A stretch of 64,000 nt of DNA from Erwinia persicina (GTDB lineage Bacteria; Pseudomonadota; Gammaproteobacteria; Enterobacterales; Enterobacteriaceae): positions 1 through 64,000 of the forward strand of contig NZ_JACYMO010000004.1 of NCBI RefSeq assembly GCF_014838825.1, written 5' to 3'. The notes beneath the pieces were generated by a model. It searched no databases, had not been told where the DNA came from, and saw nothing but the letters and a program-made list of their open reading frames with translations. Of the stretch, positions 2,623-5,285 are shown piece after piece; positions within the stretch are counted from its first letter, which is position 1; the number at the start of each line of letters is the position of its first letter. A program made the translations under genes and the position numbers.

Positions 2623-3438
2623 ATGTCTTTTAATGTTAAAACGCTTGCCGCTGTCGGCGCGCTTATCGGTACCCTGGCACTGGCTGGCTGTGACCAGAAA
2701 GAGAAAGATCCAAACCACATTAAAGTGGGTGTGATCGTCGGGAGCGAACAGCAGGTTGCCGAGGTGGCAGCAAAAGTCGCTAAAGATAAATATGGTCTGG
2801 ACGTTGAGCTGGTGACCTTCAACGATTATGTACTGCCTAACGAAGCGTTGAGCAAAGGCGACATTGATGCAAATGCCTTCCAGCACAAACCTTATCTCGA
2901 TCAGCAGATCAAAGACCGTGGCTACAAGCTGGTGTCTGTCGGCAGCACGTTTGTCTATCCGATTGCCGGTTACTCTAAGAAAATCAAATCGCTGGATGAA
3001 CTGCAGAACGGTGCCCAGGTCGCAATCCCTAACGATCCTACCAACCTGGGCCGTTCTCTGCTGCTGCTGCAGAAAGTGGGTCTGATCAAACTAAAAGACG
3101 GCGTTGGCCTGCTGCCAACCTCGCTGGATGTGGTTGAGAACCCGAAAAACCTGAAGCTGGTCGAGCTGGAAGCGCCACAGCTGCCACGTTCTCTGGACGA
3201 TCAGCAGATCGCGCTGGCCGTCATCAACACCACCTATGCCAGTCAGATTAACCTGACACCGGCAAAAGACGGTATTTTCGTGGAAGACAAAGACTCCCCT
3301 TACGTGAACCTGATCGTCGCCCGTGAAGATAACAAAGACGCGGAAAACGTGAAGAAATTCGTCCAGGCCTATCAGTCTGATGAAGTGAATGACGCCGCGA
3401 ACAAAGTGTTCAACGGTGGCGCAGTCAAAGGCTGGTAA
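2623..3438 (+). CDS. metQ: Methionine-binding lipoprotein MetQ
   Basis: This is the periplasmic substrate-binding lipoprotein of the methionine importer, 271 residues, NLPA family. A type II signal peptide ends in the lipobox LALAGC with Cys23 as the lipidated residue. The residue after the cysteine is Asp, the classical inner-membrane retention signal that prevents Lol export, so the mature protein is predicted to stay on the inner membrane beside MetNI. The rest aligns throughout with E. coli MetQ from memory, including the C-terminal VFNGGAVKGW. A hairpin follows the stop codon. Confidence 0.97.
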   Translation: MSFNVKTLAAVGALIGTLALAGCDQKEKDPNHIKVGVIVGSEQQVAEVAAKVAKDKYGLDVELVTFNDYVLPNEALSKGDIDANAFQHKPYLDQQIKDRGYKLVSVGSTFVYPIAGYSKKIKSLDELQNGAQVAIPNDPTNLGRSLLLLQKVGLIKLKDGVGLLPTSLDVVENPKNLKLVELEAPQLPRSLDDQQIALAVINTTYASQINLTPAKDGIFVEDKDSPYVNLIVAREDNKDAENVKKFVQAYQSDEVNDAANKVFNGGAVKGW

Positions 3439-3447
3439 GTTGCAACT

Positions 3448-3474
3448 GCGGGTGGTGCCTGCCACCCGCATTCT
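3448..3474 (+). terminator. Hairpin after metQ, probable operon terminator
   Basis: The inverted repeat GCGGGTGG at 3448-3455 pairs with CCACCCGC at 3462-3469 across a 6-base loop. It lies 10 bases after the metQ stop. The following run (ATTCTCAT) is only moderately T-rich, so termination may be partial. Confidence 0.55.
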
Positions 3475-3578
3475 CATCGTCTCATTATCATACGTGCTTT
3501 AGTGCATGCTCTCCGCTTGTTATTTCTGCTCTGGCTTGGTTCAATAACGCCACTTTTACCGAACGTGAGGAATTCCCC

Positions 3579-3983
3579 ATGCGTGTTTTACCGCTCTGTC
3601 TGTTAGCACTGTCGCTGACAGGGTGTTCGTTGCTGCCTAAACCCTATGAGCCCGTTAAACCATTTCCGCAGTCAACGCAAAACGACTCATCTCACTCTAA
3701 ACCCGCAGCCCGCCCTGCTCCGGTAAAACTGTATACGGATGCAGCCGATCTGGTGAGCAAACCGTTCCGCGACCTGGGGGAAGTGTATGGTGATGATTGT
3801 CAGAGCAACGCACAGGATTCGCCACCCAATCTTGCGACAGCACGCAAACGCATGCAGATACGAGCCTCCGGCATGAAAGCAAATGCGGTACTCGTCCATA
3901 AATGTGAAATTGTTAGCGGCGCTCAGGGCTGCCTGCGTCAGGCCGTATGCCAGGGTTCTGCCCTGAAGGTCTCCAGCCAGTAA
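3579..3983 (+). CDS. rcsF: Outer-membrane stress-sensor lipoprotein RcsF
   Basis: RcsF senses envelope damage and activates the Rcs phosphorelay by relieving IgaA inhibition. It is a 134-residue protein with a lipobox LTGC at Cys16 and Ser at +2, which permits outer-membrane sorting. The proline-rich linker (about 17-50) is the part that in E. coli threads through outer-membrane beta-barrels. The C-terminal domain carries Cys74, Cys109, Cys118 and Cys124, which form the two non-consecutive disulfides known for this family. ATG is preceded by GAGGAA. It lies after metQ as in E. coli, but is separated from trmO by a paralog. Confidence 0.93.
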   Translation: MRVLPLCLLALSLTGCSLLPKPYEPVKPFPQSTQNDSSHSKPAARPAPVKLYTDAADLVSKPFRDLGEVYGDDCQSNAQDSPPNLATARKRMQIRASGMKANAVLVHKCEIVSGAQGCLRQAVCQGSALKVSSQ

Positions 3984-4163
3984 CCCCCGCTTTTGTTCTG
4001 TACCGGGGGCAGTTGCGACCCCTGGTCCTGAACACCTACTGCCCCGAATCGGTGAAAGACAGCCCGCCTCAACCTATAAGATAATCCCTATATTTATCTT
4101 TGTATTCAACAAGTTATTTTATAAAAAAACCGATAGTGATAAACTCGCCACTTCAAATAACAC

Positions 4164-4182
4164 TATACAAAGGAATTGTATA
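4164..4182 (+). promoter_or_regulatory. Perfect 7-bp inverted repeat enclosing the ribosome binding site of the rcsF paralog
   Basis: TATACAA at 4164-4170 and TTGTATA at 4176-4182 are exact reverse complements. They flank the 5-base loop AGGAA, which is the Shine-Dalgarno sequence, and the ATG starts at the next base. In RNA this would form a weak, A/U-rich hairpin displaying or hiding the ribosome binding site. In DNA it could be an operator. Either control role is inference. Confidence 0.55.
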
Positions 4183-4578
4183 ATGCGTAAATTAGCCTTT
4201 ATTTTGGTATCATTAGCCCTGACTGGTTGTGCGCACACAGCAGACCAGAATGATCAAAAAAAATCCCAATCAAAACCCGAGGCAAAAAGCACTATGTCGG
4301 TTGTGACCTCTCACACCCCAGTAAAACTGCTGAGTCACCCTGACGAACTCGCGGGCAAACCTTTCCTGACATTAGGCCGGGTTACCGGTTCAGCCTGCCA
4401 GACCAGAGCCGCAGATTTTCCTACTGACATGAACATTGTGCGTCATCAGCTGCAGACCAAGGCGGCTACGCTTCACGCCAATGCTGTGCTGCTGAATAAT
4501 TGTGAAATCACGGCCAGCATTGAGGGCTGCTATCGTCAGACCCTGTGCCAGGGTTCAGCCCTGAGAGTCGCCCAGTAG
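4183..4578 (+). CDS. RcsF-like lipoprotein, tandem paralog of RcsF
   Basis: A 131-residue predicted outer-membrane lipoprotein resembling its upstream neighbour RcsF. The lipobox is LTGC at Cys16 with Ala at +2. Cys72, Cys107, Cys116 and Cys122 keep exactly the 35-9-6 spacing of RcsF Cys74/109/118/124. Segments such as GKPF..LG, HANAVL, CEI and CQGSAL are shared. The linker (about 17-46) differs: it is rich in Gln, Lys, Asp and Ser with only one proline, instead of proline-rich. The upstream 100 bases are clearly AT-rich. Its stop codon shares one base with the GTG of trmO, so this copy occupies the position next to trmO that rcsF has in E. coli. Function is not established: it may be a second Rcs input, a decoy or a diverging duplicate. 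Confidence 0.88.
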   Translation: MRKLAFILVSLALTGCAHTADQNDQKKSQSKPEAKSTMSVVTSHTPVKLLSHPDELAGKPFLTLGRVTGSACQTRAADFPTDMNIVRHQLQTKAATLHANAVLLNNCEITASIEGCYRQTLCQGSALRVAQ

Positions 4579-5285
4579 TGACCACATTTTCCTTCCAGCA
4601 AATCGGCAAGATTCATTCCCCGTGGAAGGAAAAGTTTGCTGTTCCCCGCCAGCCTGGCTTAATTCAGGATGGCGGCGGAGAGCTCCATTTCGATGCGCCT
4701 TATAATCATCCCGATGCGGTACGTGGCCTGGAAGCCTTCAGCCACCTGTGGCTGCTGTTTATCTTCCACCAGACGATGGAAGGCGGCTGGCGTCCAACGG
4801 TACGTCCCCCACGTTTAGGCGGTAATGCGCGTATGGGGGTCTTCGCCACCCGTTCAACCTTCCGTCCTAACCCGGTCGGGATGTCTCTGGTGGAACTGAA
4901 AGGAATTCGCTATGAGCGACAGCAGGTCATCCTCGAATTGGGCAGCCTTGACCTGGTTGACGGTACCCCTGTCGTTGATATCAAACCCTACCTGCCGTTT
5001 GCCGAAGCATTACCTGACGCACGCGCCGGTTTTGCCCAGCAGGCCCCTGTTGCCGATATGCCGGTGAGCTTTAGCCCCCATGCACGGATGCAGCTGATGC
5101 AGCACCAGCAGCGCTTTCCCCATCTTGAACGTTTTATTCATCAGGTTCTCGCCCAGGATCCGCGCCCTGCCTATCGCAAAGGCGAAGAGCCCGAGCGTGA
5201 ATATGCTGCATGGCTGCTGGATTTCAACGTCCGCTGGCGTGTTATCCACCCAGGCACAGAAGTTATCGCCATCGACCCGCGTTAA
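4578..5285 (+). CDS. trmO: tRNA (adenine(37)-N6)-methyltransferase TrmO
   Basis: TrmO (TsaA/YaeB) methylates N6 of t6A37 in tRNA-Thr(GGU) with SAM as donor. I choose the GTG at 4578, which overlaps the preceding stop codon by one base. It gives 235 residues beginning V-T-T-F-S-F-Q-Q-I-G, matching the length and N terminus of the E. coli protein. An in-frame ATG at 4545 lies inside the upstream gene and adds 11 unrelated residues. Family features include EKFAVPRQPGL near the N terminus and the substrate loop with RSTFRPNPVG. No strong Shine-Dalgarno is visible, so translation is probably coupled to the rcsF paralog. Confidence 0.93.
   Translation: MTTFSFQQIGKIHSPWKEKFAVPRQPGLIQDGGGELHFDAPYNHPDAVRGLEAFSHLWLLFIFHQTMEGGWRPTVRPPRLGGNARMGVFATRSTFRPNPVGMSLVELKGIRYERQQVILELGSLDLVDGTPVVDIKPYLPFAEALPDARAGFAQQAPVADMPVSFSPHARMQLMQHQQRFPHLERFIHQVLAQDPRPAYRKGEEPEREYAAWLLDFNVRWRVIHPGTEVIAIDPR

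Follow-up and report, generated by a model that had tools for sequence, protein, structure and literature searches.

What does a second copy of an envelope-stress sensor do when it lies directly behind the first, and is it kept for doing it? The question is raised by the window, the whole 64,000-nt stretch of Erwinia persicina DNA analysed here, in which two genes for RcsF-like lipoproteins follow one another. We addressed it through the identity of the two genes, the presence and history of the second one in related genomes, the constraint on its protein, and the fit of its residues with what is known of RcsF mutants.

The gene pair between metQ and trmO

The first-pass annotation had proposed a tandem rcsF duplication, and this is what the locus holds. 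The ORF list gives, all on the forward strand and in the gene order of E. coli, metQ as the 5' neighbour (2623..3438), rcsF1 (3579..3983, 134 aa), rcsF2 (4183..4578, 131 aa) and trmO as the 3' neighbour (4578..5285). Pfam RcsF, NCBIfam PRK10781.1 and phmmer identify rcsF1 as encoding a canonical RcsF outer-membrane lipoprotein, while Pfam RcsF and AlphaFold/Foldseek mark the product of rcsF2 as a diverged RcsF paralogue and predicted lipoprotein. E. coli K-12 has, as had been said, one rcsF between metQ and trmO (this locus only was counted), the place that rcsF2 also occupies. The proximal copy adjoins metQ and the distal one trmO, whose GTG start overlaps the rcsF2 stop (TAGTG); rcsF1 has lost its overlap with trmO. 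A search of the window's own genome (G000 in our codes; 4.8 Mb, 60 contigs) returned two RcsF matches, namely these two genes.

RcsF1 and RcsF2 are 39% identical (56 of 142 columns; BLASTP E 2e-32), a homology far above chance. Against the Pfam RcsF profile (PF16358), which has a curated cut-off of 29 bits, RcsF1 scores 152.4 bits (5.1e-45) and RcsF2 109.8 bits (9e-32). The NCBIfam equivalog PRK10781.1 is stricter: its cut-off of 140 is passed by RcsF1 (192.8 bits) and missed by RcsF2 (130.2 bits), so that only RcsF1 is an equivalog under that rule. In phmmer searches the same five PDB RcsF chain sequences were matched by either protein, with RcsF1 reaching E. coli RcsF (6t1w_C) at 2.2e-46. 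The Pfam match and the placement among RcsF in protein trees (see below) confirm that the distal protein belongs to the RcsF family.

Sequence and alignments also bear out the lipobox Cys16 and the 35-9-6 cysteine spacing that had been read in both proteins. The signalling-domain cysteines are C74/C109/C118/C124 in RcsF1 (E. coli numbering) and C72/C107/C116/C122 in RcsF2; this spacing, which in RcsF serves two non-consecutive disulfides, is present in 5/5 intact RcsF2, and so is C16. The lipobox cysteine codon of rcsF2 lies at 4228..4230 (forward strand) within the signal LTGCA, and the residue at +2 is Ala, not Asp, compatible with the predicted sorting to the outer membrane. An AlphaFold model of RcsF2, built with RcsF relatives in its alignment, has a mean pLDDT of 78.6, with block means of 91-97 across residues 51-130 and poor values before. 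Foldseek matched it best to solved RcsF structures, with TMt of 0.89 for 2y1b, 0.91 for 9biy_B (the RcsF chain of an IgaA entry) and 0.87 for 6t1w_C (RcsF bound to BamA), and 0.69 for the NMR model 2l8y. As modelled, RcsF2 appears to keep the RcsF fold.

Distribution and origin of rcsF2

RcsF was found in 37/37 Erwinia genomes, and seven of them gave a second match, each time between rcsF1 and trmO. Five of these second copies are intact and form two groups, clade A (G000, G403 and G409) and clade B (G399 and G416); the remaining two are decayed, the copy in G412 being without its 5' part and that in G418 carrying two in-frame TGA. Retention in sister species, to which the annotation had tied its reading, thus stands for four genomes besides the window's own but is not universal, given the two decayed copies and a possible loss in G411, which indicate that the gene is dispensable in some lineages. 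In G411 a single rcsF ends in a TAA stop and is followed by an 89-nt gap before an ATG that aligns with other trmO starts. Queries with three RcsF2 proteins gave no significant tblastn match in this gap (E 2.8 or worse), and blastn matches extend 5' of trmO by some 40 nt to G412 and some 25 nt to G418 and G000; by its sequence, the gap may be a relic of rcsF2. Among named species genomes the only match to RcsF2 was Erwinia persicina NBRC 102418, 89% identical over all 131 residues.

In the wider family, RcsF was present in 264/392 genomes and six had two matches, their places being those among the matches listed. The second match was weak, prophage-like and below the Pfam cut-off in G188 and G290, one gene read in two frames in G054, and a gene cut at contig ends in G265, which leaves G000 and G180 as the two-RcsF genomes of the 392. 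An RcsF2 profile run over the same family genomes (387 from other genera) scored 239.7 bits in G000, with 139.7 bits as the next-highest value and nothing RcsF2-like among the matches listed. Import of rcsF2 from a plasmid or phage was rejected, since tblastn returned no plasmid or phage match of at least 60% identity: the best of 16 plasmid records, called rcsF where annotated, had 41.4% and the single phage record 36.4%. The titles and abstract openings of the open-access RcsF and Erwinia literature held no report of a second RcsF among the matches listed. The accessible part of an Erwinia genome comparison gives rcsF as present, without copy number (PMC2897811); further Rcs-related literature, likewise available in part, comprises PMC7553776, PMC10710380, PMC12388358 and PMC5829831.

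The spacer between rcsF1 and rcsF2 measures 199 nt in the window and 209-210 nt in clade B, where it looks unrelated by eye. After rcsF1 lies a hairpin (4003..4025, forward strand; CCGGGGGCAG-loop-ACCCCTGG) whose stem is invariant and whose loop is variable in the three clade-A genomes; its pattern occurs once in the genome, with no T run after it. Folding z was -1.9 for 3984-4045 and -3.2 for 3990-4040, and -1.2 and -1.5 in G403 and G409. A Shine-Dalgarno-like AAGGAA, read from the sequence at 4170..4175 on the forward strand, stands 7 nt 5' of the rcsF2 start; G403 has AAGGAA too and G409 AAGGGA. A sigma-70 scan covering both strands of 3400-4700 found 4 sites where 1.2 were expected and established no rcsF2 promoter, the best site (10/12, 4157-4184) running into the rcsF2 start codon. 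An rcsF2-associated terminator was likewise discarded: both terminator-like sites (1.4 expected) lie inside rcsF1. The motif scan also picked out a weak RcsAB-box-like sequence, TAAGATAATCCCTA (4077..4090, forward strand, 11/14, shuffle fraction 0.029), for which no function is claimed, the consensus having been chosen after the spacer was seen. The whole window has 2 such 11/14 matches against 2.18 expected, and RcsB autoregulation of rcsF2 was set aside. Orthologous sites reach 10 in G403 and, by a hand count, 9 in G409, and clade B has none above 9; G409 holds a different 11/14 match elsewhere in the spacer, on the other strand (fraction 0.0615).

We sought to establish whether the two clades of rcsF2 go back to one duplication. 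In protein trees the five RcsF2 form one clade with long branches (96/94 with 72 rows; 94/94 with 61 rows, the 72 minus G180 and the 'o' rows). They have in common F6, L64, V88, Q91 and R130, residues that are rare elsewhere (at most 2/85 other RcsF), and at six further positions clades A and B are fixed for different rare residues. This joint clade and the shared rare residues argue against two independent duplications, one in each clade, that later converged. The opposite case can be built from the AU test, which only just rejected forcing clade-A RcsF2 with its own RcsF1 (p 0.046) and did not reject the same for clade B (p 0.101), from the lack of evident similarity between the A and B spacers, and from the locus tree. 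The latter, made from metI, metQ, trmO and proS, groups the clade-A genomes with the single-copy G353 (99/97) and G411 with clade B (100/98), which places single-copy species with an intact 4-nt junction between A and B, albeit on weak joining branches (55-58% bootstrap). On balance, we consider two duplications rather unlikely, at about one chance in four.

A 4-nt overlap of rcsF and trmO is found in 28/30 single-copy Erwinia (26 ATGA and 2 GTGA), G353 included, the remaining two being G410, with TAATG, and G411, with no overlap. Such an overlap is not restorable by simple loss of rcsF2. From these sequences a single origin of the gene seems the likelier, though it is not proven, and rcsF2 may since have been lost, been replaced through recombination or arisen a second time by duplication. 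A transfer of rcsF2-trmO between lineages was not retained, as the hint comes from the 5'-terminal 118 nt of G000 trmO, which give 80.5/82.1% to G407/G410 vs 75.4% to the sister G353 and are too short to decide. As for DNA traces of the duplication, 3400-4700 contains no long repeat; the repeats there amount to two direct families and two inverted pairs, all short. The TAATG of G410 (L052), unique among the 30 single-copy junctions, resembles the TAGTG found 3' of rcsF2 in G000 and G409; it is possibly the trace of a collapsed duplication, or chance.

Constraint on RcsF2 and its changed residues

In the four within-clade pairs, dN/dS (NG86, in a script) was 0.228, 0.166, 0.148 and 0.203 for RcsF2 and 0.009, 0.022, 0.027 and 0.028 for RcsF1, with dN in RcsF2 4 to 17 times that of RcsF1 and RcsF2 synonymous distances of 0.23-1.37. 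The G000-G399 pair is left out of the RcsF2 range because synonymous sites are saturated there in RcsF2 (RcsF1 gives 0.079). A ratio of 0.15-0.23 together with a raised dN points to a protein that is kept, under much looser constraint than RcsF1; the two clade-B RcsF2 are only 37-40% identical to the window's. One may suspect a transient duplicate without a distinct role, on its way to slow loss, and the decay in G412 and G418, the possible deletion in G411 and the relaxed constraint relative to RcsF1 would all suit it. Nevertheless, the dN/dS values, the intact frames in 5 genomes and the four kept disulfide cysteines are not what neutral decay would yield, and we disfavour this explanation as improbable. 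Judged by sequence, RcsF2 is the second member of a tandem at the native locus, a putative RcsF-family lipoprotein under apparent purifying selection, accompanied by a single canonical RcsF and a single IgaA.

RcsF2 was compared, in E. coli numbering, with 85 distinct other RcsF, taking as conserved the positions with at least 95% agreement; as these 85 come from search-chosen loci and are mostly best-scoring, conservation is overstated. Out of 42 conserved positions, 22 are kept in all five RcsF2 and 20 are changed in at least one. Conserved sites kept in 5/5 include C16, L58, F63, C74, C109, C118 and C124, and G60, K61 and S127 are kept in 5/5 as well. On the other side stand R64 (in 83/85 other RcsF), which is Leu in all five; D65 (84/85), which is T, A or P; E68, which is R, G or V; and H107 (83/85), which is N or Q. 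In the window, the place of R64-D65 is taken by rcsF2 codons 62-63 (Leu-Thr by alignment; 4366..4371, forward strand). P62 is A or S in 4/5, the window's RcsF2 keeping Pro, and position 55 (Ala in E. coli) is P/T in clade A and V in clade B, with P also in 8/85 other RcsF. The N-terminal domain is of almost normal length (31 or 33 residues; median 33) but poor in proline, with 2-4 where the median RcsF has 8; it carries a net charge of +1 to +3 in the clade A proteins and of +4 to +5 in those of clade B (median +3).

Mutants of E. coli RcsF give these positions a meaning. The accessible part of a preprint (PMC13317618) describes, for RcsF at the inner membrane, less IgaA contact and activation in A55K, L58Y and F63A and no reduction of either in A55V, K61A, P62L and R64A, the last signalling well when held there. 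For the outer membrane, the portions available of a mutant screen (PMC9907809) report normal OMP complexes and IgaA contact with poor signalling in P62A and R64E, read as locked OFF, and H107R in the same screen class; A55V shows raised signalling, in a class with little or no response to polymyxin, and A55Y and S127L do not assemble with OMPs. Positive charges in the surface-exposed region of RcsF are required for sensing LPS damage, as far as the excerpted source goes (PMC4942254).

We also looked at the partners of RcsF. IgaA was matched in 37/37 Erwinia genomes; 36 gave a single match and G415 two fragments, and a second IgaA as a matching partner for RcsF2 was dismissed, there being none across the 37. 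The hydrophobic residues of IgaA that bind RcsF, L472, I476, M481 and L483, are unchanged in 15/15 Erwinia IgaA compared, as are N536 and V537. At position 533 the D of E. coli is replaced by N in 13/15 (clade A included) and by S in G399 and G416, the intact clade B. Co-change of IgaA with RcsF2 was rejected: of 29 positions in these 15 IgaA only 533 tracks RcsF2, G411 and G423 differ at a few, and the rest do not separate genomes with RcsF2 from those without. RcsD is present in the window's genome at 55% identity to E. coli. As a separate observation, igaA of G415 (L111, C1:379500-386500) is matched as two overlapping pieces in different frames, one with an internal stop. In E. coli an igaA deletion is toxic, according to the available part of the preprint (PMC13317618), so the split points either to an error in the sequence or to altered Rcs signalling.

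Possible roles and relation to known RcsF proteins

Our working proposal, held tentatively and at somewhat less than even confidence, is that rcsF2 encodes a true RcsF paralogue, kept by selection, which modulates the Rcs envelope-stress pathway. Like RcsF, RcsF2 would receive its lipid anchor and be sorted to the outer membrane; it would be offered to the same Bam/OMP assembly route and could still touch IgaA through the kept hydrophobic L58 and F63. The changes at R64, D65, E68 and H107 (and at P62 in 4/5) suggest that its OMP complex may lean away from the switch that stress normally triggers. RcsF2 would in that case take up OMP or IgaA sites but not signal in the manner of RcsF1, with which it would compete, and the threshold of the Rcs response would be raised or the response dampened. 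The roles put forward in the first-pass annotation, a second input to the Rcs phosphorelay or a decoy competing for IgaA or BamA, are hypotheses. Since the IgaA-binding residues L58/F63 are kept and the outer-membrane switch residues are changed, a modulator fits somewhat better than a redundant sensor. Several points weigh against it. The E. coli mutants are R64E, R64A, H107R, P62A and P62L, not R64L, H107N/Q or P62S, so that the states of RcsF2 at 64 and 107 and its Ser62 are not those assayed, although clade B's A55V and P62A were. The window's RcsF2 keeps P62, and R64A signals well at the inner membrane. IgaA D533, by our mapping the counterpart of the Klebsiella residue that makes the salt bridge with RcsF, is N/S in the 15 Erwinia IgaA, and loss of R64 may matter less there. 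As A55V is a signal-blind gain of function in E. coli, clade B RcsF2 with V55 might be more, not less, active; and decay in G412 and G418, with the possible loss in G411, shows the gene to be dispensable there. The sharper claim, of a natural and selected 'OFF-biased' RcsF that fills sites without raising the alarm and so sets the Rcs threshold in part of Erwinia, strikes us as unlikely. If true, RcsF2 would be a dominant-negative envelope-stress regulator made by tandem duplication of the sensor.

The main rival to a modulator is a second sensory input, in which RcsF2 would be an ordinary IgaA-activating RcsF, retuned in its N-terminal domain and switch loop to another envelope signal and expressed from its own promoter. 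The IgaA-contact residues L58, G60, K61 and F63, kept in 5/5, the strongly different N-terminal domain with its few prolines, and a spacer of its own, 199 nt long, that contains a hairpin and a Shine-Dalgarno-like site would all agree with such a sensor, yet it would have to work after losing R64, D65, E68 and H107, all residues with 95% or higher conservation among the other RcsF compared, and the scan of 3400-4700 did not establish the promoter. We rate it as doubtful, with a little over one chance in four. RcsF2 might also have been redeployed outside Rcs as a surface or periplasmic lipoprotein, for example in OMP plugging or phage protection, with IgaA contact no longer selected. This has in its favour the fast divergence between the clades, the confinement to one genus in the genomes searched, among the matches listed, and the RcsF-like lipoproteins in prophage-like stretches and a Serratia phage; the preservation in 5/5 of L58 and F63, known for their part in IgaA contact, speaks against it, though the two residues may be structural. 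Redeployment is, in our estimate, a one-in-five prospect.

With its IgaA-contact residues kept and its outer-membrane switch residues lost, RcsF2 could be a natural separation-of-function variant, with many sites altered together, for the switch of RcsF from its OMP partner to IgaA. A comparison of RcsF1 and RcsF2 would bear on which residues serve each step and on the tuning of Rcs by a second sensor. If RcsF2 turned out to be redundant or unrelated to Rcs, it would be a lineage-specific duplicate of modest interest.

How does rcsF2 compare with other additional RcsF-like genes? The second RcsF of G180, from another genus (g47), is an extra copy like rcsF2 (L107:5459-5830; 113.5 bits beside 105.5 bits for the native RcsF), but it is unlinked to metQ-trmO and stands away from the Erwinia RcsF2 on the tree, if on a long branch. 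Its signal-peptide cysteine is replaced (SGFS), so it is probably not lipidated. The RcsF that G180 has at metQ-trmO (L108:5247-5585) is a protein of 113 aa, its N-terminal domain being very short.

Weaker relatives occur at L109:3988-4368 (contig C8 of G290; 126 aa, 24.6 bits) and L110:4307-4723 (contig C30 of G188; 138 aa, 23 bits), with RcsF-domain scores below the Pfam cut-off of 29. By the reading of neighbouring ORFs both genes lie in prophages, and one IMG/VR viral contig encodes a protein 100% identical to that of L109. A 33.6% identical relative in a Serratia phage (MT843275.1) is annotated 'RcsF-like outer membrane lipoprotein', its gene lying between antiterminator Q and holin-lysozyme genes. 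These proteins may be phage mimics of RcsF. Those of Serratia phage vB_SspM_BZS1, L109 and L110 share with RcsF2 a similarity to the RcsF domain, weak in their case, in a lipoprotein; unlike rcsF2, their genes are phage-borne, and direct kinship with rcsF2 is unsupported.

The closest comparison is with RcsF of E. coli and Klebsiella. RcsF2 resembles it in the metNIQ-rcsF-trmO locus, the lipobox Cys16, the cysteine spacing, the predicted fold and in L58, F63 and S127. It differs in scoring below the equivalog cut-off, in being without R64, D65, E68 and H107, in its proline-poor N-terminal domain, in its faster evolution, and in being the second gene of a tandem whose product is 39% identical to its own RcsF1.
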